The notes under the pieces are model-generated. The model made no database searches, had not been told where the DNA came from, and saw nothing but the letters and a program-made list of their open reading frames with translations. From the NCBI RefSeq assembly GCF_021117405.1, contig NZ_CP088251.1:2728001-2792000 (forward strand): 64,000 bases of DNA, written 5' to 3'. This document shows positions 23,202 to 41,905 of the stretch, one piece after another. Numbering within the stretch: position 1 is the first letter of the stretch; each line of letters starts with the position of its first letter. The position numbers and the translations under genes are program-made. Origin of the DNA: Frateuria edaphi (GTDB taxonomy: Bacteria; Pseudomonadota; Gammaproteobacteria; Xanthomonadales; Rhodanobacteraceae).

Positions 23202-24431
23202 TCAGACCGACCGCGTCGCCACCACCGGCGGCACGCGCGAGGCGCGCAGCGCCGGCGCCAGTACCGAGAGCTGGCCCAGTGCCCACAGCGCCAGCGCGCC
23301 GACCGGCAGATACCACAGCGGCAGGCGCGGCAGCTCGTAGCGGCTCATCAGCAGCAGGTTCAGCGCCAACGCCAGCAGCATGCCCAGCGCCACGCCGCCG
23401 CCCACGATCAGGGCGTTCTCGGCCTGGAAGTAACACAGGATGTCCGCGCGAGTGGCGCCGATCGCGCGCCGGATACCGATCGCGCGCGTGCGCTGCTGTA
23501 CCCAGAAGTTGGCCAGGCCAGCCACGCCCAGCGCCGTGACGAACAGCAGGCCCAGCGCGGCGGCCAGCAGCAGGCCGACCATGGTGCTGTCGCGCTGGAA
23601 GTAATCCTCGCGCATCTGCGTGTAGGTGCGTTGGCCAGTTTCGGGGATCAGGCGGTTGGGGTCGAGCGCCTGCAGGGTGGTCACGGCAGCGGCGAGCACG
23701 CGCGCGCGATCGGCCGGCGCGCTGCGCAACAAGTAGCTGGTCTCGTTGTCATCGGGCAGTTGCGGCCACAGCATGACCTCGCCGTCGCTGCCGTCGCCGC
23801 GCAGCATCGGCCGAACGGTGTCGCTGACGATGCCGATCACCCGGCTGCTGTGGCGGCCGGCGTAGACCACCTGCCCCAGCGGATCCTTGCCGCCGAAGAA
23901 CTTTTTCGCCGCCGCCCCCGTCAGCAGGATCGACGGTACATCGCCAGTGACGTACTCGTCGGCGGTGAAGTCGCGCCCGGCGATCACGTGCAACCCCAGC
24001 GCGCCAAGGAAGCCCGGCCCACCGCTGTAGGTGTCGATCGACATGCAGCCGGTGTGATCCAGGCTGCTTGCAACCATCGCACGCTTGAGCGCCTCCTCGT
24101 TGGGGCAGACGCCGTAGCTGTTCACGCTGCTGCTGAAGGGCAACGCCCAACCCACCGCGACGGCTGCCGTCACCCCGGGAATCCGGCGCAGAGCATCCAA
24201 ATCTGCTGCATGCCGCGCCTGATGGTTCTCGTCCTTGGCAGTGCCCTCCACTCGGATCAACGAGAGCTCCTGCTCGGCCAGCCCGCTGGGCGTGTGGATG
24301 CGCTGCACGCGCTGGGCCACCATGAAGGCGGCGTTGGCGACGATCGCCAGCGTGAGCGCCACCTGCAGGATCAGCAGGCTGGCGGTGAGCTTGTGATGGC
24401 GCAGGCTGGAAAGAATCGGACGCAAAGGCAT
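23202..24431 (-). CDS. MacB/FtsX-type ABC permease, B type, pair 6
   Basis: A 409-residue permease with one N-terminal membrane helix (about 18-40), a large periplasmic MacB-PCD-like domain and three C-terminal helices. The cytoplasmic coupling segment is RTRAIGIRRAIGATRADIL. It ends with the B-type tail SRVPPVVATRSV. It is the most divergent B protein in the array (MVAQR, GIRRAIGA). Its periplasmic domain has two cysteines (YGVCPNEE and HTGCMSI) that other B proteins lack at these places. It starts 10 bases after its A partner. Confidence 0.9.
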   Translation of the reverse strand: MPLRPILSSLRHHKLTASLLILQVALTLAIVANAAFMVAQRVQRIHTPSGLAEQELSLIRVEGTAKDENHQARHAADLDALRRIPGVTAAVAVGWALPFSSSVNSYGVCPNEEALKRAMVASSLDHTGCMSIDTYSGGPGFLGALGLHVIAGRDFTADEYVTGDVPSILLTGAAAKKFFGGKDPLGQVVYAGRHSSRVIGIVSDTVRPMLRGDGSDGEVMLWPQLPDDNETSYLLRSAPADRARVLAAAVTTLQALDPNRLIPETGQRTYTQMREDYFQRDSTMVGLLLAAALGLLFVTALGVAGLANFWVQQRTRAIGIRRAIGATRADILCYFQAENALIVGGGVALGMLLALALNLLLMSRYELPRLPLWYLPVGALALWALGQLSVLAPALRASRVPPVVATRSV

Positions 24432-24441
24432 GGCGTGGTCC

Positions 24442-25746
24442 TCACTGTGCCTTCAGTTGCAGGGCGGGAACGACGCGACTGGCGCGCCAGGCCGGCAGCA
24501 TGCCGGCCAACAAGCTGCCGGCGATCGCCAGCAACACGGTCAGCGCCAGCATGGACAGATCCATCCGGGCGATGTGTGCGTAGCTGTCCGGCCGATGCCG
24601 TACGCTCCACAACCCGGCTTGCGCGATGGCGATGCCGAGCAGGCCGCCGAGCAGGCCCACCAGCGCCGACTCGATGCCGAACTGCAGGAAGATGTCGCGC
24701 CGCGTCGCCCCCAGTGCGCGGCGGACGCTGACCTCGCCACTGCGACGCAGGAACTTAGCCAGTAGCAACGCCACGATGTTGACCAGGCAGACGATCAGGA
24801 AGCTCAGCGCCAGCCAGAGCTGGAGACGCAGATCGCCCGGCACCAGCTTCTCGTGTTCCAACCAGCCCATCAACGGATACAACGCGGCGTTCTGCGACGA
24901 GCGCTCGAACCGCCCCAACCGTTTCTGTTCGGCCGAGTAGTCGACCAGGAACTGGCGGTAGTTGCGCACTTGCGCGGCGTCCTTCAGCCGCACCCACACC
25001 TGCAGCCAGGTGTAGTAGCCGCTGGTCTTGCCGCCCTCCTTCCAGCTCGCCTGGTTGCCGCTGACGCTCATCCCCAGGTCCAGCGCGGTGGCCAGCGGCA
25101 GGAAGAAGCGGTCCGCCTCGCCGTAATTGCCCTTGCCAGCGGCGTCGGCATAGAACTGCGGCTGCGGCGCCCACTCGGAAGTTACGCCCATCACCTGGAA
25201 GCGTGCATCGCCCAGCCGTACCGTGCGGCCCACCACGTCGGTGCGACCGAACAGTTGCATGGCCAGTCCGTGGCTGAGTACCGCCACCCGTGCACGGGCT
25301 TCGTCGTCCGCCATGGTCCAGCCCCGCCCCTGTTCGAAGCGCAGTCCGAACAGGTCGAAGAACCCGGCCGTGGCATAGCGCCCACCCACCCGGAACGGCA
25401 AGCGGCCGGTCTGCACTGGCCACACCAGCACCCGGCCGCCGGCCATCGCGGCCTGCTGGTCCGCGCGATGGGCCTTGAGCATCGCCATGGCGTCGGGCCA
25501 GGTGAAGTTGTCGCTGGGATCCCCCCAGTCGTTGTTGGTCGGGTAGTTCGCCGGCAATGGATCCAGGTGCGGGTAGTAAAGCTGGGCGCTCAGTGCCGGC
25601 AACGGATCGCGGGTCATCACGTGCAACACGGTCAGCATGGTCATGCTGGCGCCGATGCCCAGGCCGATCGCCAGCACCATCAGGCTTGTGAGGACCGGAC
25701 TGCGCCGGAGGCTGTGCAGGGCGAGATCGAGGTAGTAGGCGAACAT
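24442..25746 (-). CDS. MacB/FtsX-type ABC permease, A type, pair 6
   Basis: A 434-residue permease starting MFAYYLDLALHSLRRSPVLT, the A-type N-terminus. One N-terminal helix, a periplasmic domain and three C-terminal helices are visible, with the coupling segment RRSGEVSVRRALGATRRDIF and the tail VVPALQLKAQ. It lacks the pair of periplasmic cysteines conserved in the other five A proteins; the corresponding region reads NQASWKEGG and YYTWLQVW. The start at 25746 is supported by CCAGGAGC upstream. It heads the last permease pair. Confidence 0.9.
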   Translation of the reverse strand: MFAYYLDLALHSLRRSPVLTSLMVLAIGLGIGASMTMLTVLHVMTRDPLPALSAQLYYPHLDPLPANYPTNNDWGDPSDNFTWPDAMAMLKAHRADQQAAMAGGRVLVWPVQTGRLPFRVGGRYATAGFFDLFGLRFEQGRGWTMADDEARARVAVLSHGLAMQLFGRTDVVGRTVRLGDARFQVMGVTSEWAPQPQFYADAAGKGNYGEADRFFLPLATALDLGMSVSGNQASWKEGGKTSGYYTWLQVWVRLKDAAQVRNYRQFLVDYSAEQKRLGRFERSSQNAALYPLMGWLEHEKLVPGDLRLQLWLALSFLIVCLVNIVALLLAKFLRRSGEVSVRRALGATRRDIFLQFGIESALVGLLGGLLGIAIAQAGLWSVRHRPDSYAHIARMDLSMLALTVLLAIAGSLLAGMLPAWRASRVVPALQLKAQ

Positions 25747-25793
25747 TCCGTGTGCTCCTGGCGAATCGAACGCTGCGGCGAGGTCACCCCCAT

Positions 25794-25895
25794 CCGCCCT
25801 TCGGGCACCTTTCCCTCTTGGCACGGGAGAAGGATCATTTGCGCGCCCATCTTCCGAGCCTTCCTCCGCACGCGGGGGAAGGTGCCGACAGGCGG
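25794..25895. repeat. long intergenic inverted repeat between permease pairs 5 and 6
   Basis: Arms CCGCC...GGCACCTTTCCC and GGGGAAGGTGCC...GGCGG pair with one mismatch around a 58-base interior. It occupies most of the 169-base gap before the pair 6 A gene. It resembles ERIC-like or BOX-like repeats common in these bacteria. Confidence 0.65.
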
Positions 25896-25915
25896 AAGGG
25901 ACTCCTGCGGCGATC

Positions 25916-27139
25916 TCACACCGACCGTGTCGCCACCACCGGCGGGACCGCCGCCGCGCGCAGCGCCGGCGCCAGCACGGCCAGCTGGCCCAGCACCCAC
26001 AGCGAGAGCGCGCCGATCGGCAGGTAGTACAGCGGCAGGCGCGGCAGTTCGTAATGGCTCATCAGCGCGAGGTTCAGGCCGAAGGCCAGCACCATGCCCA
26101 GTCCGATGCCGAAGCTGACGATCAGGAAGTTCTCGGTCTGGAAGTAGCGCAGGATGTCGCTGCGCGTCGCGCCCAGTGCGCGGCGCACGCCGATCTGCTT
26201 GCGCCGCTGCGCGACCCAGAAGCTGGCCAGGCCGACGATGCCCAGCGCGGTGACCAGCAGCAGCGCGGCGATCACGCCGACCAGCATGCCGGCCATGGCG
26301 CGGTCGTTGCGGAAGTAGCGGTGGCGCAGGTCGCCCAGGGTCTGGCTCTGGTCCAGGTCGAGCACGCCCTCCGGAACGGCGCGGATCAGCGCGGCGCGTG
26401 CGTCGCGCAGCACGCGCGGCAGGTCGGCGGGCGCGGCCTTGATGACGTAGTTGCCGGCCAGCTGCCTGCCCGGCGCCATCGGCAGGAATATCGACCATTG
26501 CGCCGTGGCCACGCCGCGCGCGCCAGGCTCCGGCTGCGCCAGGTGGTCGAGGATGCCGGCGACGCGGAAATGGTACTTGTCGCTCCAGAAGTCCTTGCCG
26601 AGCGGGTTCTTGCCCGGCCACAGGTGCTCGGCCAGCGGGCGAGTGATCCACACCGGCGCATCCAGCGGCAGCCAGGCGCCATCGGAGGGCTGGAAGTCGG
26701 CGCTCGAGAAGCGCCGCCCCTGCACCGGACGTATCCCGATCGCTTCGGCGGCCGCGGGACCGCCGGCGTAGAAGTGCGGCACGGTGCCGTAGTGGCGCTC
26801 GGCCTGCCCGGGCGGGTCCAGCGTGATGCCTGCATACCCGCTGGGCGCGCCGAACGGCAGCGAACTGACGACCGCGGCCGCCTGCGTGCCCGGCACCGTG
26901 CGCAACGCGGACAAGGCGCGCGCATTGAGGTCCGATTCGTTGCAGCCGTCGCAATCGAGCCGCAACTGCGCGAGCGAGGACTCGTCCACGCCGCTGGGCA
27001 CCTTCATCAGGTCCAGCCGCGAGACGATCAGGAAGCAGGCATTGCACAGCACCGCGCAGGCAAGCGCGATTTCGAGCGCGATCAGCAAGGTGGCAAGCCG
27101 GTGGCGGCGCAGCGCGGCGAGTATCGGTCGGATATCCAT
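25916..27139 (-). CDS. MacB/FtsX-type ABC permease, B type, pair 5
   Basis: A 407-residue B-type permease beginning MDIRPILAALRRHRLATLLI. The topology is the MacB one: helix 1 at about 18-40, a periplasmic domain, then three C-terminal helices with coupling segment RRKQIGVRRALGATRSDILR. The tail is AAVPPVVATRSV. It has a CDGC motif early in the periplasmic domain (RLDCDGCNESD), not present in the other B proteins. It starts 9 bases after its A partner. Confidence 0.91.
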   Translation of the reverse strand: MDIRPILAALRRHRLATLLIALEIALACAVLCNACFLIVSRLDLMKVPSGVDESSLAQLRLDCDGCNESDLNARALSALRTVPGTQAAAVVSSLPFGAPSGYAGITLDPPGQAERHYGTVPHFYAGGPAAAEAIGIRPVQGRRFSSADFQPSDGAWLPLDAPVWITRPLAEHLWPGKNPLGKDFWSDKYHFRVAGILDHLAQPEPGARGVATAQWSIFLPMAPGRQLAGNYVIKAAPADLPRVLRDARAALIRAVPEGVLDLDQSQTLGDLRHRYFRNDRAMAGMLVGVIAALLLVTALGIVGLASFWVAQRRKQIGVRRALGATRSDILRYFQTENFLIVSFGIGLGMVLAFGLNLALMSHYELPRLPLYYLPIGALSLWVLGQLAVLAPALRAAAVPPVVATRSV

Positions 27140-27148: not shown

Positions 27149-28471
27149 TTACAAGGTCTTCAGCTGCAGCGCCGGCGCCACGCGGCTCGCACGCGCGGCA
27201 GGCAACAGGCCGGCCGCCACGCTGGTGGCCACGGCCAGCACGAAGGTCACCGCGAACATCGAAACGTCCAGGTGCGCCATGTCCGCATACGCCACCGGCT
27301 GGTGCCTGACCAGCCACAGCCCCACCAGCGACAGCAGCCATCCGGCGATGCCGCCCAGCAACCCGATCATGCCGGCCTCCACCAGGCATTGTGCGAACAC
27401 TGCGCCACGCGTGGCTCCGAGCGCGCGACGCACGCCGATCTCGCCGCTGCGGCGCAGGAACTTGGCCAGCAGCAGGCCCACCGTGTTGAACAGGCAGATC
27501 GCCAGGAAGGCGAACGCCAGCCAGGTCTGCAGCCGCACGTCGCTCGGCACCACGCCGTTGTAGTCCAGCCATTCGGTGAGGTTGCGCATGCGCGTGTTGC
27601 CGGCATGGCTGAAGCGGCCCAGCGCCATCTGCTGGGCCGCATAGGAAGCGACGAAGCGGCGGTAGTCGTCCGCCTTGCCCGCGTCGGCCAGTTCCACCCA
27701 CAGCCGCACCCACACGCAAGGCGAGTCCTTGAGGTAACCGGGCCGTTCGGGCACCTGCCAGCAGGTGAACTGGTAGAAGTTGCCGTCGTTCAGATCCATG
27801 CCGGTGAAGAACGGCGTCATCACATCCTCGGGCTTGCCATAGAAGCCATCCGTATGGCCGTGCGCGAAACGGCCGCCGGCCACTTCGTAAAACAGCGGCG
27901 ACGGGCGCCAGGGCGCCAGCACGCCGACGATGCGCACGTCCTTGTCGCGCAGCCGCAGCGTGCGACCGACGCTGTCCCTGCCGCCGAACAGCTTGTTGTT
28001 GAGGTCCGCCGAGATCACCGCCACGCGGCTGTGCCGGGCGTCGTCCTCGGCCGACCAGCTGCCGCCGTACTGGAAGGCAACGCCGAACATCGGGAAGAAA
28101 TCGGCAGTGGCCGAGAGCATGTCGAGCTTGGAAGCGGGCACGTCCGAACCGGGCGCCGCGACCTTGATGGGGCTGGACACGACCAGCGCCTGGCGGTCGG
28201 CACGCTTCGCGCTCCACAGGTCCACGGCCGAGTGGTAGTCGAGCTCGTCGTAGGGCTCGTCCGAATCCTTGTTGGCCGGATCCGGGTCCACCTGCGGATA
28301 GAAGATGTGCTGGCTGCGGCCCGGCAGGGGATCGCCGGAAAGCAGCCGCATCACGGTAAGCGTGGTCATGCTCGCGCCGATGCCCACGGCGATGGCGAGC
28401 ACCATCAGCGCGGTGAGCGTCTTGTTGCGCTTGAGGCTGCGCAGGGCGAGATCGAAGTAGTAGCCGAACAT
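27149..28471 (-). CDS. MacB/FtsX-type ABC permease, A type, pair 5
   Basis: A 440-residue A-type permease beginning MFGYYFDLALRSLKRNKTLT, the longest in the set. It has the A-type features: SGDPLPGRS after helix 1, the cysteine pair in FTCWQVPE and DSPCVWVRLW, the coupling segment RRSGEIGVRRALGATRGAVF and the tail RVAPALQLKTL. It is the only A gene preceded by the ankyrin gene instead of a hairpin repeat. Confidence 0.92.
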   Translation of the reverse strand: MFGYYFDLALRSLKRNKTLTALMVLAIAVGIGASMTTLTVMRLLSGDPLPGRSQHIFYPQVDPDPANKDSDEPYDELDYHSAVDLWSAKRADRQALVVSSPIKVAAPGSDVPASKLDMLSATADFFPMFGVAFQYGGSWSAEDDARHSRVAVISADLNNKLFGGRDSVGRTLRLRDKDVRIVGVLAPWRPSPLFYEVAGGRFAHGHTDGFYGKPEDVMTPFFTGMDLNDGNFYQFTCWQVPERPGYLKDSPCVWVRLWVELADAGKADDYRRFVASYAAQQMALGRFSHAGNTRMRNLTEWLDYNGVVPSDVRLQTWLAFAFLAICLFNTVGLLLAKFLRRSGEIGVRRALGATRGAVFAQCLVEAGMIGLLGGIAGWLLSLVGLWLVRHQPVAYADMAHLDVSMFAVTFVLAVATSVAAGLLPAARASRVAPALQLKTL

Positions 28472-28509: not shown

Positions 28510-29193
28510 TCATCGGCGTGGCGTACCGCTTGCCGTCGCGCCCTTGCCGCGCAGGAAGCCCGCGACGGCATCGCCGCGGGCCTGGTTGAGGGGCGTGCGC
28601 CACTGGCCGTTGTCCGCCATGGCGCCAAGGTTGACGTCGGCGCCGTGCGAGGCCAGGTACTGCACGGCCGCCAGGTGATTGCCACGGACGGCCGTGATCA
28701 GCGCGGTCTCGTCGCCGGGGACGACGGCGTCCAGCCGCGCGCCGGCGTCCAGCAGTTGCGCCAGGGTGCCGACGTCGCCCGCCGCGGCCGCCGCGATCAG
28801 CGGATTGCCGTCACCGTGGCAGGCGCCGTTGACGTCCGCGCCCAGGCGAAGCAGCGCATCGACCATCGTCCGGTCGGCGCCCTGCGCGGCCACGATCAGC
28901 GGGCTGCCGTCGCCCGGCGCGCAGGCATCCACGCTGACGCCCGCGTGGACCTGCTGCCGCACGAGGTCGGTGCGGCCGTGCCGGACCGCTTCGACCAGCG
29001 CCGCCGCTTCTTCGGCATGGCCGGCTCGGGTGCCCGGCGGCGACACGGCCGCGGACGCCGTTGCGGGCAAAGCGCACGCGCCGACGCAGGCCGCGGCCAG
29101 TGCGCATGCCATCGAAAGAGGCAGGCGCCGGACGCTCCGGCGAGGCAACACGGAAGCTGGCGTACCCGATCGGGCGATGTGCTGCATGTTCAT
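28510..29193 (-). CDS. exported ankyrin-repeat protein within the permease array
   Basis: A 227-residue protein with an N-terminal signal sequence (basic start, hydrophobic LSMACALAAACVGACAL, AXA-like sites) followed by four to five ankyrin repeats, for example DGSPLIVAAQGADRTMVDAL, DGNPLIAAAAAGDVGTLAQL and DETALITAVRGNHLAAVQYL. Ankyrin repeats mediate protein-protein contact. The ATG at 29193 is preceded by GAGGAGACACGACC. It lies between permease pairs 4 and 5 with gaps of 18 and 38 bases, so it is likely co-transcribed. A periplasmic scaffold or substrate-binding role for the transporter is inference only; it could also be lipid-anchored through the cysteines near the signal end. Confidence 0.82.
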   Translation of the reverse strand: MNMQHIARSGTPASVLPRRSVRRLPLSMACALAAACVGACALPATASAAVSPPGTRAGHAEEAAALVEAVRHGRTDLVRQQVHAGVSVDACAPGDGSPLIVAAQGADRTMVDALLRLGADVNGACHGDGNPLIAAAAAGDVGTLAQLLDAGARLDAVVPGDETALITAVRGNHLAAVQYLASHGADVNLGAMADNGQWRTPLNQARGDAVAGFLRGKGATASGTPRR

Positions 29194-29211: not shown

Positions 29212-30435
29212 TCAGACCGAGCGGGTGGCGACCACCGGTGGCACCGCGGCGGCGCGGATGGCCGGGCCGAGCACCGCCATCTGCCCGATCAGCCACAGCG
29301 CGATCGCGCCCACGGGGAAGTAATAGGCGGGCAGCCGTGGCAGCTCGTAATGCAGCATCAGGAACAGGTTGATGCCGTAGGCCAACACCATGCCCAGCGC
29401 GATGCCGATGGTCGCCAGCAGGAAGTTCTCGGTCTGGAAGTAGGTGAGGATGTTGCGGCGGGTGGCGCCCAGCGCGCGACGCACGCCGATGGTCCGCCGC
29501 CGCTGCGCGACCCAGAAGCTGCCCAGGCCGACGATGCCCAGCGCGGTCACCACCAGCAGCGCAATGCAGACGCCGGCGAGCAGGCCCGCCATGGCGCGGT
29601 CGTCCTGGAAGAATTCGGCACGGATGTCGTCCAGCGTCTTCTTCTCCAGGATGATGCGGTGCGGGTCGGTCTTGCGCAGCGTGGCCACGGCGGCGGCCAG
29701 CACGCGGTCGCGCTCCTGCGGCGCGGTGCGGATCACGTAGCGGCTGGCGTTGTCCGAGTCCATCCGCAGCGGGAACACCATCGACCACTGCGCCGTATCG
29801 TCGCCGCCGAACAGCGCCGGACGGATCAGCCCGGCCACCACGCCGACCACCCGCACCGGATCGCCACCGAGGTAGATCGTCTTGCCGAGCGCGGACTGGC
29901 CGGGCCAGAGCTTCTCGCCGAGACCGCGGGTGATGATCACGGTGGTGATCTTCTTGGCGAGCTTTTCGTCGCGGGCGACCTGGCGCATTTCCAGGTACTC
30001 GCCCGGCTCGAAATCGCGCCCGGCCACGAGCTGCGCGCCGAAGGTCTTAAGCAGGTTCTCGCCGAAGTACTGGGTCGCGTTGAGGGTGGCCTGCTTCTGC
30101 TTGGGATCGAGCTTGACGCTGGTGTTCCAGGAGCTGTTGGTGAACGGCACCTGGTTGACCAGCGCCACCGATGTCACACCCGGAATCTGGCGCAGCGCGG
30201 TGAGGTCCTCCTGCGCGTGCGCCTTGGCGTCGGCGGTGTCGCCGATGCCGAAAGCCTGGACCTGGATCAGTTCGTGCTCGGCCACGCCGCTGTACATCTG
30301 CATGCGCTCGAGCCGCTGGTTGATCAGGAACACCGCGTTGCAGACGATCGCGCAGGTCAGCGCGATCTCCAGCACCAGCAGCAGGGCGGTGATCTTGTGG
30401 CGGCGCAGCGTGGAGAGGATCGGAAGAATGTCCAT
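29212..30435 (-). CDS. MacB/FtsX-type ABC permease, B type, pair 4
   Basis: A 407-residue B-type permease beginning MDILPILSTLRRHKITALLL. Helix 1 spans about 18-40 (LVLEIALTCAIVCNAVFLI); three C-terminal helices follow the periplasmic domain, with RRRTIGVRRALGATRRNILT as coupling segment and AAVPPVVATRSV as the tail. It has no cysteine in the periplasmic domain. It begins 9 bases after its A partner and is followed by the ankyrin gene. Confidence 0.92.
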   Translation of the reverse strand: MDILPILSTLRRHKITALLLVLEIALTCAIVCNAVFLINQRLERMQMYSGVAEHELIQVQAFGIGDTADAKAHAQEDLTALRQIPGVTSVALVNQVPFTNSSWNTSVKLDPKQKQATLNATQYFGENLLKTFGAQLVAGRDFEPGEYLEMRQVARDEKLAKKITTVIITRGLGEKLWPGQSALGKTIYLGGDPVRVVGVVAGLIRPALFGGDDTAQWSMVFPLRMDSDNASRYVIRTAPQERDRVLAAAVATLRKTDPHRIILEKKTLDDIRAEFFQDDRAMAGLLAGVCIALLVVTALGIVGLGSFWVAQRRRTIGVRRALGATRRNILTYFQTENFLLATIGIALGMVLAYGINLFLMLHYELPRLPAYYFPVGAIALWLIGQMAVLGPAIRAAAVPPVVATRSV

Positions 30436-30444: not shown

Positions 30445-31746
30445 CTAGTTGCTCTTCAGCTGCAGCGCGGGGGTGACCTGGCAGGCGCGCCAGGCGGGCA
30501 GCAGCCCGGCCAGCAGCGAGGCACCGACGGCCAGCAGGAAGGTGGCCAGCAACATCGACAGGTCCAGATGGGCGAGCGCGGCGTAGTCCGACGGTTGCTT
30601 GCGCACCAGCCACAGGCCCACCAGCGACAGCAGCAGTCCGGCGACGCCGCCGGTGAGGCCGATCACGCCCGACTCGACCAGGAGCTGCATGAACACCTCG
30701 CGGCGCGAGGCGCCCAGCGCGCGGCGCACGCCGAGCTCGGGGCTGCGGCGCAGGAACTTGGCCAGCATCAGGCCCACCGTGTTGACCAGGCACACCAGCA
30801 GGAAGCCCAACGCGAGCCACGCCTGCAGCCGCACGTCACCCGGCACGACCTTGTTGTAGTCCAGCCAGCCCATCACATCGGGCAGGCGCACGTTCGGCGG
30901 GCGCTGGAAGCGGCCCAGCGCCTTCTGCTCCTGCGAGTAGTGCACCAGGTACTGCTTGTAGGCGGCGGCCTTGGCCGGCGTATCCAGCTGCACCCAGAAC
31001 TGCAGCCACACGCAGGGCGCGGTGTCCATGTGATCCGGATCGGAGCCCTTGCCCCAGCAATCGGTCGAACCGTTGCGCCCGAGCTTGAGCTCGTAGGCGG
31101 TGGTCAACGGCAGGTACACGCCCTCGTCCTCGGCGTAGCTGCCGCTGTTGAGGTCGTAGAAGTGCGGCGTCATGCGCCAGGTGTCCAGCACGCCGACAAT
31201 GCGGAAGGCGACGTCGTTCATGCGCAGGGTCTGGCCGGTGCTGTCGCGACCCTGGAACAGCTTGTCGTTGAGCTTGCGCGAGATCACCGCCACGCGCGCA
31301 TGCGCCTCGTCGTCGGCCGCCGTCCACGCGCGGCCGTAGCGGATCGGCACCTCGAACATGGGGAAGAAGTCGGCCGTGGTGTAGCGCGCGTCCTCGAAGA
31401 ACGGATCGATCGCCGACTGCGCCGGCTGCACCGGCACCGCGCCGCCGGTCATCAGCGCCTGCCGGTCGGCACGGCCCGCGTGCAACAGGTTCATGCCGTC
31501 GGTCCAGGTCACCTGCACCGGCGGATCGTCCTGCGGCTGGTAGCCGTCCATGTCCTGCGGGTCGAGCTGCGGGTAATAGAGCTGCGCGCTCTTGCCGGGC
31601 AAGGGATCGCCCGAGAGCACGTGCAGCACCGTCAGCGTGGTCATGCACGCGCCGATGCCCAGCGCGATCGCCAGCACCATCAGCGCCGTGAGGGCCTTGT
31701 TGCGCCTGAGGCTGCGCATGGCCAGGTCGAGGTAGTAGCCGAACAT
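30445..31746 (-). CDS. MacB/FtsX-type ABC permease, A type, pair 4
   Basis: A 433-residue A-type permease beginning MFGYYLDLAMRSLRRNKALT. The cysteine pair is in STDCWGKG and TAPCVWLQFW. The coupling segment is RRSPELGVRRALGASRREVF and the tail VTPALQLKSN. The start at 31746 is chosen because it matches the other A proteins; the frame extends 11 codons upstream into the hairpin repeat region. A long frame on the opposite strand is a compositional shadow. Confidence 0.92.
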   Translation of the reverse strand: MFGYYLDLAMRSLRRNKALTALMVLAIALGIGACMTTLTVLHVLSGDPLPGKSAQLYYPQLDPQDMDGYQPQDDPPVQVTWTDGMNLLHAGRADRQALMTGGAVPVQPAQSAIDPFFEDARYTTADFFPMFEVPIRYGRAWTAADDEAHARVAVISRKLNDKLFQGRDSTGQTLRMNDVAFRIVGVLDTWRMTPHFYDLNSGSYAEDEGVYLPLTTAYELKLGRNGSTDCWGKGSDPDHMDTAPCVWLQFWVQLDTPAKAAAYKQYLVHYSQEQKALGRFQRPPNVRLPDVMGWLDYNKVVPGDVRLQAWLALGFLLVCLVNTVGLMLAKFLRRSPELGVRRALGASRREVFMQLLVESGVIGLTGGVAGLLLSLVGLWLVRKQPSDYAALAHLDLSMLLATFLLAVGASLLAGLLPAWRACQVTPALQLKSN

Positions 31747-34374: not shown

Positions 34375-35607
34375 TCAAACGCTGCGCGTAGCCTCCACCG
34401 GAGGCACGCGCGAGGCCTTCACCGCCGGCGCCAGCACCGCTCCCTGCCCCAGCAACAGGAGCATCAGCACGCCGGCGACCAGGTAGAGCGGCGACATCGG
34501 CTGTGAACCCATCCGGATCACCAGCCACACATTCATCGACACCGCGAGCACCACGCCCAGCAGCACGCCGCCGAGGGTGATCAGCAGGTTTTCGGTAAGG
34601 AAGTAGCCGAGGATGTCGCGCTGGCGCGCCCCAAGCGCGCGGCGCACGCCGATCTGCCTGCGCCGCTGGCCGACCCAGAAGCTGGTCAGGCCGACGATGC
34701 CCGCGGCGGTGATCACCAGCAGCACGGCGCTGATGATGCCCATCAGGATCGCCATGCCGTAGTCGCCGTCGTAGGCGCGGTGGCGGACCTGGGCGAAGGT
34801 CATGATGCCGTCCTGCGCGGGGATGATCCGCATCGGACTCTGCGCGTAAAGCGCATCCTTCGCCTGGCGCATGGCATCGGCGAGCTGCCCCGGCCGCGCG
34901 CGCACCAGGTAGAACGTGCCGTCGCCGGTCAGGCGCGCCGGGACCAGCACGGCGTTGTAGGCATAGGGCTTGGCCCACACCCCGGTCATGTGCGCCTGCA
35001 GGGTGTCGGTGATGCCGATCACGGTCGAGGGCGCGTTGTCGTTGGACACGTAGATGGTCTTGCCCAGCGCCGAGCCGCCCGGAAAGAGGATCTCCGCCAA
35101 CCCCTTGCTGATGATGATCTGCCGGGCATGCATGCGGTCGGTGCCGCTCTGGCTGCCGACCTCGTCCGCGCTGAAGTTGCGGCCGGCGATCAGGCGCGCA
35201 CCCAACGTCGCGAGGGTATGCTCATCGGAGAAAAAGATCGCCGTGTCGGTGGTCATCTTGACCTGATCGGGGCTCAGCCGGACGAAGTTGTCCCAGCCCG
35301 AGCCGCGCAGCGGGAAGCTGTTGGAGGAACTGACCTCCTGCACGCTGCCGAGCTGGCGCAGCGCCTGCAGGTCGGCGCGCATGCGCGCGTCGGCGTCCTG
35401 CGAGGGCAGCTTCTCCGGCCAGTCGTTCTGGATCACGAACAGGTTCGACTCCTGCACGCCGCTGGGACGGTCCACCCGCACCAGCCGCTGCTGGATGATG
35501 AACAGCGCGTTGCACACGATTGCCAGCGTCAGGGCGATCTGCAGCGCAATGAGCGTGGTGCCGGCCTTGTGGCGGCGCAACGCGACGAGGATGGGTCCGA
35601 TTTGCAT
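34375..35607 (-). CDS. MacB/FtsX-type ABC permease, B type, pair 2
   Basis: A 410-residue B-type permease beginning MQIGPILVALRRHKAGTTLI. Helix 1 is ALQIALTLAIVCNALFIIQQ, nearly the same as in the pair 1 B protein. The coupling segment is RRRQIGVRRALGARQRDILG and the tail SRVPPVEATRSV. It begins 10 bases after its A partner. Confidence 0.92.
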   Translation of the reverse strand: MQIGPILVALRRHKAGTTLIALQIALTLAIVCNALFIIQQRLVRVDRPSGVQESNLFVIQNDWPEKLPSQDADARMRADLQALRQLGSVQEVSSSNSFPLRGSGWDNFVRLSPDQVKMTTDTAIFFSDEHTLATLGARLIAGRNFSADEVGSQSGTDRMHARQIIISKGLAEILFPGGSALGKTIYVSNDNAPSTVIGITDTLQAHMTGVWAKPYAYNAVLVPARLTGDGTFYLVRARPGQLADAMRQAKDALYAQSPMRIIPAQDGIMTFAQVRHRAYDGDYGMAILMGIISAVLLVITAAGIVGLTSFWVGQRRRQIGVRRALGARQRDILGYFLTENLLITLGGVLLGVVLAVSMNVWLVIRMGSQPMSPLYLVAGVLMLLLLGQGAVLAPAVKASRVPPVEATRSV

Positions 35608-35617: not shown

Positions 35618-36937
35618 TCAGTTGGACTTCAGTTGCCAGGCGGGCTGCACTTTCGCGGCGCGCCAGGTGGGATAGAGCGCGGCGATCATCGTGGCCAGGA
35701 TCGCCAGCAGCAGCGTCGACAGCATCAGCGACACGTCCACGTGCGCCAGTTGGGCGATTTCCGGCGAGAACAGCAGTCCCACCCCGCCGACGCCGACCGC
35801 GGTGAGCAACAGGCCCAGCACGCCGCCGGCGGCGCCGACGGTGCCCGCCTCGATGAGGAACTGGCGGTAGATCTCGCCCCGCGGGGCACCCAGTGCGCGA
35901 CGCACGCCGATCTCGGCGCTGCGGCGCATGAACTTGGCCAGCAGCAGCCCGATGGTGTTGACCAGGCAAATCACGAAGAAGCCGGCCGCCACGATCAGCG
36001 AGATGCGGCTTTCCGGCGGCACCACGTCCTCGAAGTCCAGCCAGTCGGCGACGTCGCGCAGGCGCACGTTCGGCGCCCAGCGGAACCGGCCGGCGCGCTG
36101 CTGCTCGGCGGCATAGCCCTCAAGGAAATTGCGATAGGCCGACACCTGCGCAGGCGTGTCCAGTTGCACCCACATCGGGATCCACGAGCACTCGCCGTGC
36201 AGCCAGCCTTCGCGTCCGGCGTCCACGCCCGTGTTGGGCGCACCGCCGCAGTTGTTGCGCCCGGCCGTGTCGATCTTCAGGTCGTCGGCGCGATGGAACG
36301 GAATGTAGATCTGCGCGGGTTCGTCGAAGGCCGAGCCGTCGAACAGGTCGAAGTAGCGCGGCTTCGGGTCCCAGTGCTGGGTGACCCCGACGACGCGGTA
36401 GGTGTGCCCGCTCAGGTCGATATCCCTGCCCACGCTGTCGGCGCCGCCGAACACCTGCTGGTTGAACTCGTGGCTGAGCACCACCACGCCGGTGCGGCGC
36501 GCGTCTTCCTGCGCCGACCAGCCCGAGCCGTACTGGAAGGGCACGTTGAACATGCCGAAGAAGTCGGCGTTGGTCGCGTAGCCGATCGCCTTCAGCGGCA
36601 GGCTGCGGTTGCCGCCGGGAAGCACCGCCAGCGCGATCGGGTAGAACAGGGTCTGGTGCGGCGCCTTGTGCGCGCGGACCAGCGCGTTGGCATCGGTGTA
36701 GGTCAGCGCCTCCGGCGGCTCACCGTCGTTGTTGTACTGCGGGCCGCGGTTGTCGACCAGCACGGTGAACAGCTGCGAGGACTTCTCCGGGATCGGGTTG
36801 CCCGACACCACCCGGAACACCGACCAGGTGATCATCGAGGCGGCCACGCCGAACCCGATCGCGACGACCATCAGGGCGGTCAGCACGGGGTTGCGGCGCA
36901 GGCTGCGCATGCCGAGTTGGAAGTAGTAACCGAACAT
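35618..36937 (-). CDS. MacB/FtsX-type ABC permease, A type, pair 2
   Basis: A 439-residue A-type permease beginning MFGYYFQLGMRSLRRNPVLT. The cysteine pair is in RNNCGGAP and HGECSWIPMW. Helix 1 (ALMVVAIGFGVAASMITWSV) is close to the pair 1 A protein. The coupling segment is RRSAEIGVRRALGAPRGEIY and the tail VQPAWQLKSN. The start at 36937 matches the other A proteins; the upstream open frame crosses two hairpin repeats and is not coding. Confidence 0.92.
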   Translation of the reverse strand: MFGYYFQLGMRSLRRNPVLTALMVVAIGFGVAASMITWSVFRVVSGNPIPEKSSQLFTVLVDNRGPQYNNDGEPPEALTYTDANALVRAHKAPHQTLFYPIALAVLPGGNRSLPLKAIGYATNADFFGMFNVPFQYGSGWSAQEDARRTGVVVLSHEFNQQVFGGADSVGRDIDLSGHTYRVVGVTQHWDPKPRYFDLFDGSAFDEPAQIYIPFHRADDLKIDTAGRNNCGGAPNTGVDAGREGWLHGECSWIPMWVQLDTPAQVSAYRNFLEGYAAEQQRAGRFRWAPNVRLRDVADWLDFEDVVPPESRISLIVAAGFFVICLVNTIGLLLAKFMRRSAEIGVRRALGAPRGEIYRQFLIEAGTVGAAGGVLGLLLTAVGVGGVGLLFSPEIAQLAHVDVSLMLSTLLLAILATMIAALYPTWRAAKVQPAWQLKSN

Positions 36938-37110: not shown

Positions 37111-37114
37111 GGAA

Positions 37115-38347
37115 TCACACCGAGCGCGTCGCTTCCACCGGCGGCACGCGCGAGGCCTTCATCGCCGGCGCGAGCACCGCGCCCTGCCCCAGCAGCAGCA
37201 GCGCGATCACGCCCGCCGCGACGTACACCATCGACAGCCGCTCCATCTCGAAATGGCTCACCATCCACAGGTTCATGCCGATCGCCAGCGCGGCGCCCAG
37301 GATCACGCCGCCGGCGCCGATCAGCAGGTTCTCGGTGAGGAAGTAGGAAAGGATGTCGTGCTTGGTCGCGCCCAGCGCGCGGCGCACGCCGATCTGCTTG
37401 CGCCGCTGGCCGACCCAGAAGCTGGTCAGGCCGACGATGCCCGCGGCGGTGATCGCCAGCAGCACCGCGCAGACCACGCCCATCAGGATGGCCATGCCAC
37501 GGTCGCTCTTGTAGGCCTGCTCGCGGACTTCGGCGAAGGTGCGTACGCCACGTTCTTCCGGGATCACGCGCATGCGGTTGGTCTTGATCAGCAACGCCGG
37601 CACCGCCTTGGTGAGGCGTTCGAGCTGCCCGGGCTGGGTACGTACCAGGTAGCTGCCGAAGTTGCCGGTGAGCAGGCGGGGAATCAGCATCGAGTTCTCG
37701 GCGAAATTGTTCGCCCAGGAACCCGTCCACGGCACCTGCAGCCGATCGACGATGCCGATGATGGTGCTCGGCTTGGTCTGGCCGGAGTGGTACAGCACCT
37801 TGCCCAGGGCGTCGCCCTTCGGATAAAGCTTGTGGGCCAGCTCCCTGGTCACGATCACCACCGGCGTGGTGGTGAATTCCTTGGCGTCGACCCAGTCGAT
37901 CTCGTCCGGCCGGAAGTTGCGGCCCGCCACCAGGGTGAGGCCCATCGCGGCCAGCGCATGGTCGTCGGTGAAGTAGAGCGTGGTGTGCGCCATCTCCTTC
38001 TTCGCTTCCGGCGTGATGTTGATGCTGGTCGACCAGCCACCGCCGCGCAGCGGATAGGAGTTGGTCATGGTGGCATCGACCACGCCCGGCATGCGGCGCA
38101 GCGCCTCCAGGTCGGTCTTGCCCAGCGACGGCGTCGCCTTGTCGTCGGCGCCGACCCAGCGGTTGGCGACGGTCAACAGGTTGGTCTCGACCATGCCGGT
38201 CGGACGCGAGAGGTGCTCGGTCCGCTGCTGGATGATGAACAGTGCGTTGCACACGATCGCCAGGGTCAGCGCGATCTGCAGCGCGATCAGGACAGTGCCG
38301 GCCTTGTGGCGCTTGAGGGCGGCGAGAATGGGCTTGATCTGCAACAT
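37115..38347 (-). CDS. MacB/FtsX-type ABC permease, B type, pair 1
   Basis: A 410-residue B-type permease beginning MLQIKPILAALKRHKAGTVL. Helix 1 spans about 18-40; three C-terminal helices follow a periplasmic MacB-like domain. The coupling segment is RRKQIGVRRALGATKHDILS and the tail SRVPPVEATRSV. The ATG at 38347 is 8 bases from AAGGAGG; an in-frame ATG at 38353 is only 2 bases from it and is less likely. It is nearly collinear with the pair 2 B protein. Confidence 0.92.
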   Translation of the reverse strand: MLQIKPILAALKRHKAGTVLIALQIALTLAIVCNALFIIQQRTEHLSRPTGMVETNLLTVANRWVGADDKATPSLGKTDLEALRRMPGVVDATMTNSYPLRGGGWSTSINITPEAKKEMAHTTLYFTDDHALAAMGLTLVAGRNFRPDEIDWVDAKEFTTTPVVIVTRELAHKLYPKGDALGKVLYHSGQTKPSTIIGIVDRLQVPWTGSWANNFAENSMLIPRLLTGNFGSYLVRTQPGQLERLTKAVPALLIKTNRMRVIPEERGVRTFAEVREQAYKSDRGMAILMGVVCAVLLAITAAGIVGLTSFWVGQRRKQIGVRRALGATKHDILSYFLTENLLIGAGGVILGAALAIGMNLWMVSHFEMERLSMVYVAAGVIALLLLGQGAVLAPAMKASRVPPVEATRSV

Positions 38348-38361
38348 CGTCATCGCCTCCT

Positions 38362-39669
38362 TCAGTTGGACTTCAATTGCCAGGCAGGCTGGACCTGCGC
38401 GGCCCGCCAGGTGGGATAGAACGCCGCCAGCAGCGTGGCCAGCACGGCGGCGACGATGGTCAACGCGATCAGCGAGCCGTCCAGCGTGGCCAGCCGCGCG
38501 ATCTGCTCGTCGAACACCCAGCCCACGCCGAGCACGCCCAGGCCGGTCAGCAACAGGCCCAGCACGCCGCCGGTCAGGCCAACCGTGCCCGCCTCGATCA
38601 GGAACTGCGCGTAGATCTCGCGGCGCGAAGCACCCAGCGCCCGGCGCACGCCGATCTCCGGCGAACGGCGCATGAACTTGGCCAGCAGCAGGCCGATGGT
38701 GTTGACCAGGCAGATCAGCAGGAAGCCCAGCGAGACCAGCAGCGAGATCTTTGATTCCGGTGGCACGACCTTGTTGAAGTCCAGCCAGTCGGTGACGTTG
38801 CGCAGGCGCACGTTCGGCGCCCACTTGAAGCGGCCCGCACGCTGCTGTTCGGCGGCGTAGCCGGTGAGGAAGCGCTTGTAGGCATCGGCGTCGGCCCTGG
38901 CCGGAAGCTCGGCCCAGTACTCGATCCAGATGCACTCCGAGTGCAGCCAGTTGTCCCAACCGGGACCGGGCGTGTCGTTGCAGTTGTTGTTGCCGGCCGA
39001 CGGCATCTGCAGGTCGATCGCGCGGGTGAACGGAATGAACAGGCCGATCGGATCACCGAAGCCGCCGGTGTTGACCGGGTCGAAGAACAGCGGCTGCGGG
39101 TCCCATTCGCCGATCACCCCGGTGATGCGGTAGTCGTGCCCGTCCAGGTTGATCGTCTTGCCGACGCTGTTGCGGCCGTTGAACAGCTTGTCGTTGAGCT
39201 TCTTGCCGATCACCACCACCGCCGCGCGCGCGTCGTCCTGCGCCTGCGTCCACGGCCCGCCGTAGATGAACGGGACGTCGAACATGGCGAAAGCGTCGCC
39301 GTACCAGGCGTAGCTGTTTTCCTCGATCGGCAGGCGGCTGGCGTCGGCCGGGATCACCGACGGCGCGATCGGATAGAGCGCGGTCTGGCGCTTGGCCTTG
39401 TGCGCCTGCATGAAGGCCATGGCGTCGGTGTAGGTCAGTGCCGAGGGCGGCTCGCCCTGGTCGAGGTCTTCGGCCTTCCAGTTGGCGATCTGCACCGCGT
39501 AGAGCTGGTCGGATTTCTGCGGGATCGGATTGTTGGAGGTCGCCCGGAACACCGAGTAGGTGATCATCGAGGCGGCCACGCCGAAGCCGATGGCCATCAC
39601 CATCAACGCGGTCAGCAGCGGGTTGCGGCGGAGACTGCGCAGGCCAAGCTGGAAGTAGTAGGCGAACAT
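38362..39669 (-). CDS. MacB/FtsX-type ABC permease, A type, pair 1
   Basis: A 435-residue A-type permease, the first permease after the ATPase. Helix 1 is at about 18-42, the periplasmic domain runs to about residue 305, and three helices lie at about 308-332, 358-382 and 400-420. The periplasmic cysteine pair is C230 and C246 (GNNNCNDTP and HSECIWIEYW). The coupling segment RRSPEIGVRRALGASRREIY sits between helices 2 and 3, where MacB-type permeases contact the ATPase. The tail is VQPAWQLKSN. Confidence 0.92.
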   Translation of the reverse strand: MFAYYFQLGLRSLRRNPLLTALMVMAIGFGVAASMITYSVFRATSNNPIPQKSDQLYAVQIANWKAEDLDQGEPPSALTYTDAMAFMQAHKAKRQTALYPIAPSVIPADASRLPIEENSYAWYGDAFAMFDVPFIYGGPWTQAQDDARAAVVVIGKKLNDKLFNGRNSVGKTINLDGHDYRITGVIGEWDPQPLFFDPVNTGGFGDPIGLFIPFTRAIDLQMPSAGNNNCNDTPGPGWDNWLHSECIWIEYWAELPARADADAYKRFLTGYAAEQQRAGRFKWAPNVRLRNVTDWLDFNKVVPPESKISLLVSLGFLLICLVNTIGLLLAKFMRRSPEIGVRRALGASRREIYAQFLIEAGTVGLTGGVLGLLLTGLGVLGVGWVFDEQIARLATLDGSLIALTIVAAVLATLLAAFYPTWRAAQVQPAWQLKSN

Positions 39670-39708
39670 GTCGGGGTTTCCGGATAGGTGAAGTTGCCGC
39701 GCCCGCTC

Positions 39709-39734
39709 CCTCTCCCCGGCGAGCCGGGGAGAGG
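39709..39734. repeat. hairpin between the ATPase gene and permease pair 1
   Basis: A perfect 12-bp stem, CCTCTCCCCGGC with GCCGGGGAGAGG, with a GA loop, lies in the 80-base junction upstream of the pair 1 A gene. Confidence 0.8.
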
Positions 39735-39749
39735 CTCCATCGACAAGGC

Positions 39750-40463
39750 TCAGGCGTCGGCGACGCGCGCGTTGTGCGAGTGGAAGCGCGGCTCTTCGGA
39801 CAGGTCGACCACCTGGCCGTCGATGATGTGCACGTTGCGCTGGGCGCGGGCGGCGAGTTCCGGATCGTGGGTCACCATCACGATGGTGGCGCCCTCGCGA
39901 TGGATCTCCTCCAGCAGTTCCATCACGCCGCGGGCCATCTGCGTGTCCAGGTTGCCGGTCGGTTCGTCCGCCAGCAGCAGGCGCGGGCTGCCGGCCAATG
40001 CGCGGGCGATTGCCACGCGCTGCTGCTGGCCGCCGGAAAGCTCGGCCGGGTAATGCTTGGCGCGCGAGGCCAGGCCCACGCGCTCGAGCGCGTCCATGAT
40101 GCGCTGCTTGCGCTCGGCACCCTTCATGCCGCGGTAGCGCAACGGCACTTCGACGTTGTCGTACACGTTGAGGTCGGGGATCAGGTTGAACGCCTGGAAG
40201 ATGAAGCCGATCTTCTCGTTGCGGATCTTCGAGCGGGCGTTGTCGTTCAACTGGCTCACCTCGATGCCGTCGAGGTGGTAGTGGCCACCGGTGAAGGTCT
40301 CCAGCAGGCCGGCGATGGTCAGGAAGGTGGTCTTGCCCGAACCGGACGGGCCGGTGACGGCGACGAACTCGCCTTCCTTCACGTCGATGTTGAAGTCGCG
40401 CAGGGCGTAGGTCTCCACCACTTCAGTGCGGTAGACCTTGGACAGGTGGGTCATCTTGAGCAT
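39750..40463 (-). CDS. ABC transporter ATPase, MacB/LolD type
   Basis: A 237-residue stand-alone nucleotide-binding subunit. Walker A GPSGSGKTT (38-46), Q-loop Q90, signature LSGGQQQR (142-149), Walker B LLLADEP (E167) and H-loop H199 are all intact. It follows the MacB/LolD type in the GLLETFTGGHY and IGFIFQAFNLIPDL segments. It is the only ATPase encoded among twelve permeases, so it probably serves all of them. It follows the adaptor gene after 170 bases. Confidence 0.94.
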   Translation of the reverse strand: MLKMTHLSKVYRTEVVETYALRDFNIDVKEGEFVAVTGPSGSGKTTFLTIAGLLETFTGGHYHLDGIEVSQLNDNARSKIRNEKIGFIFQAFNLIPDLNVYDNVEVPLRYRGMKGAERKQRIMDALERVGLASRAKHYPAELSGGQQQRVAIARALAGSPRLLLADEPTGNLDTQMARGVMELLEEIHREGATIVMVTHDPELAARAQRNVHIIDGQVVDLSEEPRFHSHNARVADA

Positions 40464-40498
40464 GGTTACGTCCTTCGGTGGTGGTGGTAGTTCGTGCA

Positions 40499-40623
40499 GG
40501 GAACGGAGGATGGGGAACGGGTAGATGCGTCTGCGGCGTCTGGGGTTTCACCGCCCGGAGGTTTCCACGGCAAGGAGGCCGCCTCCGGATGCCACTCTTG
40601 CCTGTTCCCCATGCTCCGTTCCC
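40499..40623. repeat. long inverted repeat between adaptor and ATPase genes
   Basis: Outer arms GGGAACGGAGGATGGGGAAC (40499-40518) and GTTCCCCATGCTCCGTTCCC (40604-40623) pair over about 18 of 20 positions. The interior contains a further GGAGGC/GCCTCC pair. It may form a structured leader or partial terminator that sets the adaptor-to-ATPase ratio. Confidence 0.65.
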
Positions 40624-40633
40624 CGCCTTTCGG

Positions 40634-41905
40634 TCAATCGCTGATGGCGACCTTGGCCGCATCCTTGAAGTTGTCGGTGCCGGAGATCACGATCCGGTCG
40701 CCTTCCTTCAGGCCGTCCAGGATCTCGACCTTGTCGATGCTGCTGGCGCCCACGCGGATCGGCTTCTTCTCGGCGATGCCCTCGTGCACGACGTAGGCGA
40801 AGTTGCCGCCGGACTCGTCGACGAAGGAACCGCGCTGCACGGTAAGCACGTTGTCGCGCTTGTCGAGCAGGATGCGCACCGACAGGCGCTGGTTCTGGCG
40901 CAGCTGCTTGGGCGTGGCGCCCTCGAAGCGCAGGCGGGCGGCAACCTCGCCGTTGACCACTTCGGGCGAGATCGCACTGACCAGGCCCTTCCAGGTGTGC
41001 CCGTTGCCGGTGATCTCGCCGGACATGCCGATCCCCAGGTCACGCGCGAAGCTTTCGGGTACCTGCATCTCCACTTCCAGCGCGGAGAGGTCGATCACGC
41101 TGAGCAGCTTGGCGTCCTTGGCCACGGTCGCGCGCTCGGCGATGAACAGCTGGCCGACCTGGCCGTCCACCGGCGACTTGACGTTGAGGTCGTCGACCTG
41201 GCGCTCGAGGTCCTTGACCAACAGCTCCTGGCGCTCGTGCGCGAGCTTCTTGGACTTGATGTCGAAGTTCAGGCTGTCGTTGTCCATCCCCAGGTCCGCC
41301 TTCGCGTGCTGGGTGGTCAGCCTGGCCTTCTGCAGCGTGTCCTTGGCGCGGTCCACGTCCATGCCGGAAACCGCGCCGAGCTTGAACGCCTTCTCGTTGC
41401 GGGCCAGGTCGCGCTCGGCCGCCTGCTGGTCGATCAGCGCGTTGTCGTAGGCCTTCTGCAGCGAGGAGCGCTGCTTGCGCGCCTCGATCTGCGCGCGCTG
41501 GTATTCCACTTCCATCGCATCGGCGTTGGACTCTTCCTGCAGCAGCTTGTTGGTCAGTTCGGGGCTGTCGACCACGGCCAGCACCTGGTCCTTCTTCACC
41601 GTGTCGCCCGCGTGCACCTTGAGCGTGACCGCGCCGCCGGAAGTGGCATAGAGCGTGGGGCTGACCGCCGCCACCACCTTGCCCTCGGCCGCGATGTCGC
41701 GCACGAACAGGCCGCGTTCGACGGTGGCGAAGGAAAGCCGCGAGGCGCTGACCGACGCGTCGGCCGAGAACAACCGCATCGCGGTCGGCAGCGCAAGGGC
41801 CAGCGCGACCAGCACGGCCAGGCCGATGCCGCCGATGAGCAGCTGGCGCTTGCGGTTGGGTTTGACCTCGACCAGGCGGTCTTGAGCGGAGGTGTCGCGA
41901 ATCAT
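40634..41905 (-). CDS. HlyD/MacA-type periplasmic adaptor (membrane fusion protein)
   Basis: A 423-residue adaptor. Residues 1-20 are cytosolic, a membrane helix spans about 22-42, and the periplasmic part has the split lipoyl domain (EGKVVAAVSPTLYATSGGAV and later VKSPVDGQVGQLF), a long helical hairpin (about 118-230), a beta-barrel domain (about 265-340) and a membrane-proximal domain. Adaptors of this kind link an inner-membrane ABC permease to an outer-membrane channel. No TolC-type gene lies in the window. The ATG at 41905 is chosen because it gives the normal short cytosolic tail and lies about 25 bases after the predicted start of transcription. It is the first gene of the set. Confidence 0.93.
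   Translation of the reverse strand: MIRDTSAQDRLVEVKPNRKRQLLIGGIGLAVLVALALALPTAMRLFSADASVSASRLSFATVERGLFVRDIAAEGKVVAAVSPTLYATSGGAVTLKVHAGDTVKKDQVLAVVDSPELTNKLLQEESNADAMEVEYQRAQIEARKQRSSLQKAYDNALIDQQAAERDLARNEKAFKLGAVSGMDVDRAKDTLQKARLTTQHAKADLGMDNDSLNFDIKSKKLAHERQELLVKDLERQVDDLNVKSPVDGQVGQLFIAERATVAKDAKLLSVIDLSALEVEMQVPESFARDLGIGMSGEITGNGHTWKGLVSAISPEVVNGEVAARLRFEGATPKQLRQNQRLSVRILLDKRDNVLTVQRGSFVDESGGNFAYVVHEGIAEKKPIRVGASSIDKVEILDGLKEGDRIVISGTDNFKDAAKVAISD

Follow-up and report, generated by a model that had tools for sequence, protein, structure and literature searches.

An ATP-binding cassette (ABC) exporter is commonly pictured as a single motor that serves a single permease, and the ADOP permeases take their name from lacking a linked ATPase; Bacteroidota and Acidobacteriota are rich in permeases of the kind considered here. 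In passages of two reviews (PMC5985334 and PMC8277102), the MacB-type permease fold is described in homodimeric, heterodimeric and fused variants, and MacB homologues are presumed to work on peptides, and to do so from the outer face of the inner membrane. Passages of a 2025 survey report sigma-54 enrichment for COG0577 permeases in Gammaproteobacteria, Opitutia and Bacteroidia (PMC12316311), and a passage of PMC11573002 gives 28 and 33 ADOP copies, annotated by RAST, in two Dyadobacter genomes. Neither sigma-54 control of such permeases nor a high copy number of ADOP is therefore new; the principle of a permease array beside one ATPase was not found in the open-licence literature searched. 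Such an array is present in Frateuria edaphi (assembly GCF_021117405.1, contig NZ_CP088251.1, positions 2,728,001 to 2,792,000; this whole stretch of 64,000 nucleotides is called the window), where twelve co-oriented permease genes, arranged as six A-B pairs, follow a single adaptor gene and a single ATPase gene. We read it as a MacAB-TolC-like (type VII) exporter, with a single ATPase that would serve exchangeable heterodimeric permeases and with induction by envelope or peptide stress, and give this reading a probability of roughly 0.6.

Open reading frames re-derived from the window sequence place all twelve permease genes on the minus strand of the region 23202-41905, where a sequence-only reading of this DNA had put them. 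In the direction of transcription, the order is adaptor, ATPase, A1-B1, A2-B2, A3-B3, A4-B4, an ankyrin-repeat gene, A5-B5, A6-B6, response regulator, small secreted protein and histidine kinase. The earlier reading was right about the six pairs and about the flanking NtrC-type regulator and kinase, but it missed the ankyrin gene between pairs 4 and 5, and the small secreted protein sits between regulator and kinase. The periplasmic adaptor, of HlyD/MacA type (40634..41905, 423 amino acids), matches Pfam HlyD_D23 and HlyD_3, with RND_mfp above its cut-off and MacA and DarC below theirs. The ATPase, of LolD/MacB type (39750..40463, 237 amino acids), matches Pfam ABC_tran and has DarD as its best NCBIfam model, at 255 bits of the 375 needed; what we take to be its Walker A, signature, Walker B and H-loop motifs seem intact by eye.

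The A and B frames lie at 38362..39669 and 37115..38353 (pair 1), 35618..36937 and 34375..35607 (pair 2), 33025..34323 and 31796..33016 (pair 3), 30445..31746 and 29212..30435 (pair 4), 27149..28471 and 25916..27139 (pair 5), and 24442..25746 and 23202..24431 (pair 6). The lengths read earlier, 432-440 amino acids for A and 406-410 for B, were recovered, save that B1 reaches 412 if its earlier Met is used rather than the alternative at 38347. Partners are separated by 8-10 bases, or by 14 for B1 with the later Met, and alignments of the six A and the six B proteins bear out the N- and C-terminal signatures described for each type. From a B gene to the next gene, the gap is 18-177 bases (49-177 between directly adjacent pairs). 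There are no internal sigma-70-like sites between pairs, and terminator-like sites number 6 against 7.5 expected by chance (both strands).

All twelve frames are of the MacB/FtsX type, as had been proposed: Pfam FtsX is above cut-off in 12/12, and MacB_PCD (PF12704) in 11/12, the exception being B5 at 20.4 against a cut-off of 27. The first PDB matches of the A profile and of the B profile are MacB, and the LolC and LolE models fall far below cut-off in the proteins scanned (34 bits of 362 and 35 of 473). All twelve also match the NCBIfam ADOP model, at 151-189 bits, the six A proteins over its N-terminal half (model positions 6-401) and the six B proteins over its C-terminal half (410-802), and because they match opposite halves, A and B represent two distinct kinds of permease. 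The hydropathy profile of each aligned set, A and B, has a single segment early and three late ones, some of them fragmented. Of 21 PF12704 matches in the host genome, 11 belong to the window array, 6 lie at 429-436 kb, 2 at 365-367 kb, and 1 each near 1499 and 1757 kb.

A second operon of the same genome (G000:C1:427000-439400; G labels denote genomes, G000 being the host, and L labels fetched loci) carries an adaptor, an ATPase, three permeases of ADOP size, a regulator and a kinase. Its fused permease frames, of 827, 813 and 820 amino acids, score 611, 609 and 655 bits, one above and two just below the ADOP cut-off of 622. The existence of this fused, ADOP-type form in a paralogous operon argues for function of the separate A and B proteins as a dimer.

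Matches to the A profile are found in 36/41 relatives, in 94/97 genomes of the family, covering 25/26 genera, and in 15/299 genomes spread over the phylum, with at most 5 candidates per genome scored. Among 77 loci named from the best 80 of 532 matches, the closest relatives are Frateuria (Rhodanobacteraceae), then Dyella, Rhodanobacter and Luteibacter, with Pinirhizobacter and others also present. Twenty-three clusters were read, namely that of the window and 22 chosen from genomes with A matches among the 41 relatives, and all have the arrangement adaptor-ATPase-(A-B)n, where n is 1 (five clusters), 2 (two), 3 (one), 4 (four), 5 (four), 6 (four) or 7 (three). A regulator comes next in 22 of them, and a kinase is present in 21; G012 has neither within its stretch, and G009 has no kinase. 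Six further clusters, picked for high pair counts among the family genomes, contain 7, 9, 9, 11, 11 and 12 pairs, the stretch from G347 ending before any kinase. On recounting, exactly one ATPase and one adaptor are present in 29/29 clusters of the family and order, over a range of 1-12 pairs; a single ATPase beside many pairs, which the earlier reading proposed to look for in other Xanthomonadales genomes, is thus found there with up to 12 pairs. Thirteen further loci (eight from other families of the class, four from the order and one from the family) have one pair each, 13/13, with an additional B-like gene in one; regulator and kinase were seen in nine. In one order-level cluster, A-B is followed by a third, B-like permease (L126, 8042-9214).

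A different account would have every pair served by a separate ATPase, from a gene outside the cluster. The host genome does contain nine further ATPase matches at E <= 1e-25 that would offer candidates, but the closest of them, at 58% identity, belongs to the ADOP operon, identity is 33-48% for the others, no pair has its own ATPase within the cluster, and clusters with 9-12 pairs still have one ATPase. We regard this account as extremely improbable.

The distribution of A-B pairs outside arrays also bears on ATPase sharing. Twenty dispersed pairs, drawn from 13 genomes, were read together with roughly 5 kb of flanking sequence in both directions, or less where a contig ended; six were chosen for their promoter (see below), and 14 were taken from among the off-array A matches of the 41 relatives (not all such matches). 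Near 17/20 of the pairs, there is no match to the window ATPase within the fetched stretch, and pairs of this kind would depend on an ATPase from elsewhere. That many dimers share one ATPase is the economical reading of the 29 clusters together with the ATPase-less pairs, and the gene content of both supports the earlier proposal of one ATPase with six alternative heterodimers.

The pairs themselves are old. Identity to A1 is 40-62% for the other A proteins, and to B1 is 37-55% for the other B proteins, values that mark them as old duplicates, and in trees of 93 A and 93 B proteins the pair types are common to several genera. Distances in the A and B trees correlate at 0.91, whereas the highest of 2000 within-cluster partner shuffles is 0.37; the nearest foreign A and the nearest foreign B are partners in 87/88 cases, and 57/90 splits are common to the two trees. 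The order of types is also largely kept. For instance, the window reads 1-2-3-4-5-6, and other clusters read 1-2-4-5-6, 1-2-3-4-4-5-6, 1-2-4-5, and so on. In the 18 clusters that have two or more typed pairs (excluding the five with a single pair, and an untyped pair in G016), 163/172 type pairs (0.95) follow the majority order, compared to a shuffled mean of 0.67 and a highest shuffled value of 0.77; with the window as the sole member of its genus, the figures are 106/115, 0.70 and 0.82. The largest departures, judged by eye, are in G013, G015, G016, G024 and G036. By these comparisons of sequence, A and B are inherited as pairs.

Inheritance as pairs bears on the idea of combinatorial mixing, whereby any A would combine with any B to give up to 36 permeases from six pairs. 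The helices and C-termini are conserved among the six A and among the six B proteins, which speaks for mixing, but the partner trees match far better than shuffled partners, though linkage alone could have this effect, and in the paralogous operon the partners are covalently fixed. Mixing on this scale is, in our view, very improbable.

The earlier reading also supposed varied periplasmic domains. Among paralogues, mean identity in the periplasmic part is 0.41 for A and 0.30 for B, compared to 0.57 and 0.62 in transmembrane helices (TM) 2-4, so that the variation is real; among orthologues, the corresponding values are 0.62 and 0.52 for the periplasmic part and 0.77 and 0.79 for TM2-4 (type 9 and untyped pairs being left out of these means), and the bias is thus not peculiar to the paralogues. 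The ratio of nonsynonymous to synonymous substitution rates (dN/dS) is 0.07-0.46 for all 12 permease genes against chosen orthologues, a range that indicates that the window copies are under purifying selection, and no internal stop is present in any listed A match among the 41 relatives. These values have to be set against another possibility, redundancy, in which all pairs would be copies of a single exporter with a single substrate, retained for dosage or simply not lost so far. Copy number ranges from 1 to 12 among relatives, and duplicate types do occur (two type-4 pairs in G005, two type-8 pairs in G036), as dosage or drift would predict. The low periplasmic identity between paralogues (30-41%), the occurrence of the same types in different genera, the largely conserved order, the purifying selection on the window copies and the lack of internal stops all speak against redundancy, which we consider unlikely.

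Upstream of the adaptor gene, a sigma-54 (-24/-12) promoter, TTGGCACGGCGATTGCT (41941..41957, minus strand), has the full score and is the best site of the window; it ends 35 bases before the adaptor start codon. A box in this position is conserved in relatives, being the best on its strand of the stretch in 29/29 clusters and in the paralogous operon. Further upstream is the palindrome TGTCCGCGGACA (42025..42036, minus strand), the predicted enhancer, or upstream activating sequence, of the NtrC-type regulator. It is exact in 23/29 cluster promoters and has one mismatch in 2/29, starting 66-97 bases before the GG of the sigma-54 box. In the 13 further loci, a box of 16.5 or more is found in 9 and an exact palindrome in 5. 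The host genome has a single RpoN gene. The exact palindrome occurs four times in that genome, in the window and at 2685421, 3116009 and 3366033, the last with a sigma-54 box 77 bases on. Palindrome matches with up to one mismatch are not enriched in the host genome (14 compared to 16 in the control), and only exact palindromes, or those accompanied by a sigma-54 box, were used as sites. The copy at 3116009 (L151) is by a pcm-like gene, upstream of a TolC-type gene (OEP matches at 3116930-3118150), with no good sigma-54 box in the direction of these genes; a palindrome before a pcm-like gene is also seen in another genome (L194). The copy at 2685421 (L149) is 51 bases before a long reading frame and has no sigma-54 box.

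A composite promoter, defined as the palindrome, 42-72 bases and TGGCAC, was scanned for in 59 family genomes, and 95 sites were found in 42/59, compared to 0/59 for the reversed control. Seventy of the 95 sites were read, and the proportions are biased, many adaptor promoters being among the unread sites. The first genes at the 70 sites are 16 adaptors, 35 small peptides (recognised by start pattern; five of these sites have two peptides in tandem), 6 A-type permeases, 1 TolC-type gene and 12 others; none is an ATPase gene. The 12 others comprise two S33-type hydrolases, two weakly DUF885-like proteins, one beta-lactamase-family protein, a second that matches this family below cut-off, one DUF4440 protein, one protein that by eye resembles the second, one peptide variant, one pcm-like gene and two without evident target. 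Within or beside the 29 clusters, S33-type genes are present in 3 and DUF885 genes in 8, and DUF4440 genes are found in two. The same kinds of gene therefore occur in clusters and at scattered sites, and both tell one story. A palindrome with at most one mismatch, together with a box of 16.5 or more, is also present at 9/20 of the dispersed pairs, including all six chosen for their promoter.

The peptides that stand first at these sites form a family of 43-73 amino acids, with a conserved start (approximately MKxExLxLRxLFxAC) and one hydrophobic stretch, and most of the longer members end in the tail C-x-L-P-x-D-G-x-x-C-P. No Pfam or NCBIfam family fits the peptides scanned. Two are encoded in the host genome, at G000:C1:3366170-3366373 (L152, 1638-1841) and G000:C1:2602803-2602943 (L159), both behind the same enhancer and sigma-54 promoter, the palindrome of the latter having one mismatch. 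Peptides are present in 40/59 family genomes and, with at most 20 candidates per genome, in 2/299 phylum-wide genomes, both of the genus of the window. At least two A genes are found in 35/40 genomes with peptides compared to 6/19 without (Fisher p 3e-5), and, by genus, in 16/18 compared to 2/8 (p 0.003), an association that shared ancestry weakens. It is tempting to extend the exporter to a modular regulon, in which one ATPase and one adaptor would power a dozen or more interchangeable heterodimeric permeases, including the scattered ATPase-less pairs, with the C-x8-C peptides as selector of the permease cartridge or as cargo; this extension we hold tentatively, at rather less than even odds.

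Hydrolases under the same promoter are consistent with a response to peptides or to an attack on the cell wall. They also speak for another reading, in which the pairs would be signal transmitters of the FtsEX or BceAB type rather than transporters, sensing by means of ATP and activating either the kinase or periplasmic hydrolases: secreted hydrolases of the DUF885, S33 and beta-lactamase kinds are encoded in clusters and behind the same promoter, and, according to a passage of PMC8277102, FtsX-fold complexes can regulate hydrolases. The HlyD-type adaptor in 29/29 clusters and the TolC-type genes inside 6/29 (G011, G024, G336, G354, G364 and G366, with a Pfam run on the G011 protein; in G010 such a gene is just before the adaptor) point instead to an envelope conduit, and signalling as the function of the pairs is, we think, quite unlikely. 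Because adaptor and TolC-type genes occur together in some arrays, the gene content points to a tripartite exporter with a conduit across the outer membrane.

Behind the permease genes, the NtrC-type response regulator (21782..23119, minus strand, 445 amino acids) has Pfam matches for a receiver, a sigma-54 interaction domain and a Fis-type helix-turn-helix, and the histidine kinase (19906..21282, minus strand, 458 amino acids) matches Pfam HAMP and HATPase_c, its matches to PAS and HisKA not reaching cut-off. The small secreted protein between them (21311..21646, minus strand, 111 amino acids, with a C-x8-C tail) occurs in this position in 12/23 clusters and matches no NCBIfam model and, above cut-off, no Pfam family; it is possibly a signal or ligand of the kinase. 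Its C-x8-C end is like that of the small membrane peptides, a likeness that may be chance. The ankyrin-repeat protein (28510..29193, minus strand, 227 amino acids; Ank_2 and other Pfam matches; N-terminus signal-peptide-like by eye) is accessory, being encoded in 3/23 clusters. Its gene adjoins the type-5 pair, is also present in two congeners, and evolves faster than the core genes (dN/dS 0.47).

In the shared-ATPase exporter that we favour, each A-B gene pair would give a heterodimeric, four-helix permease with two periplasmic domains, and any such dimer would dock on the same dimeric cytoplasmic ATPase and the same periplasmic HlyD-type adaptor, which in turn would join a TolC-type channel. 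The pairs, which differ most in their periplasmic parts, would accept different substrates from within the envelope, probably peptides or lipopeptides, and expel them. The two-component system, whose genes close the operon, would sense envelope or antimicrobial stress, and its regulator, acting with sigma-54 and presumably binding the enhancer palindrome, would switch on the operon, the scattered ATPase-less pairs, the secreted hydrolases and the small membrane peptides.

Several observations weigh against this model. The palindrome is absent from four of the 29 clusters (G009, G012, G020 and G025) and from the paralogous operon at 427-439 kb, and the window operon has no TolC-type gene, the host genome having 6 or 7 OEP proteins elsewhere. 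Linkage of neighbouring genes alone would give matching A and B trees, and, the orthologues having the same periplasmic bias, relaxed constraint can explain part of the divergence between paralogues. Among the dispersed pairs, one has its own adjacent ATPase (370 bits), two others are accompanied by weak matches (39 and 65 bits), and L238 starts 725 bases from a contig end, with its upstream side unseen. Of the 14 dispersed pairs that were not chosen for their promoter, just three have this combination of palindrome and box.

The array looks like an export machine with interchangeable cartridges on a shared chassis, in the host and in many relatives of the family, with up to twelve pairs. With 1 to 12 pairs accompanying a single motor, this natural series allows motor sharing in exporters to be tested directly, and it illustrates how adding permease pairs alone could enlarge an export repertoire. 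In addition, the enhancer and promoter signature leads to a candidate regulon, including an undescribed peptide family, in which inducer and substrate can be sought. No description of the array principle, the enhancer, the ATPase-less pairs or the peptide family was found in the open-licence literature searched, and the passages of the COG0577 survey (PMC12316311) mention no arrays, enhancer or peptides.

With MacAB-TolC, or type VII, systems, the array has in common the FtsX/MacB permease fold, an ATPase of the LolD/MacB class, an HlyD-type adaptor and, in some relatives, TolC-type genes. However, the MacAB-TolC ATPase is fused to its permease, whereas here there is a separate ATPase chain with two kinds of permease and 1-12 pairs per ATPase. 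To ADOP (TIGR03434), the A and B proteins correspond as its two halves, and the paralogous operon encodes three ADOP-like full-length proteins; ADOP is, however, a single permease of about 800 amino acids above 622 bits, and the window proteins are halves in two genes, linked to an ATPase. LolCDE, in a passage of PMC8277102, likewise combines a heterodimeric FtsX-type permease with a separate ATPase dimer, and the array differs in its Lol model scores far below cut-off, in its adaptor and TolC context and in its many pairs. The darobactin exporter DarBCD provides the best NCBIfam model for the ATPase (DarD, 255 bits of 375) and a match to the adaptor (DarC, 82 of 450), both below the equivalog cut-offs. 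In the case of group II energy-coupling factor (ECF) importers, one ATPase module serves several competing substrate-specific membrane proteins, as stated in a passage of PMC7755397, and it is this principle that the array resembles, although those systems are unrelated vitamin importers and the array would consist of exporters, whose putative sharing of one ATPase is read from gene content.

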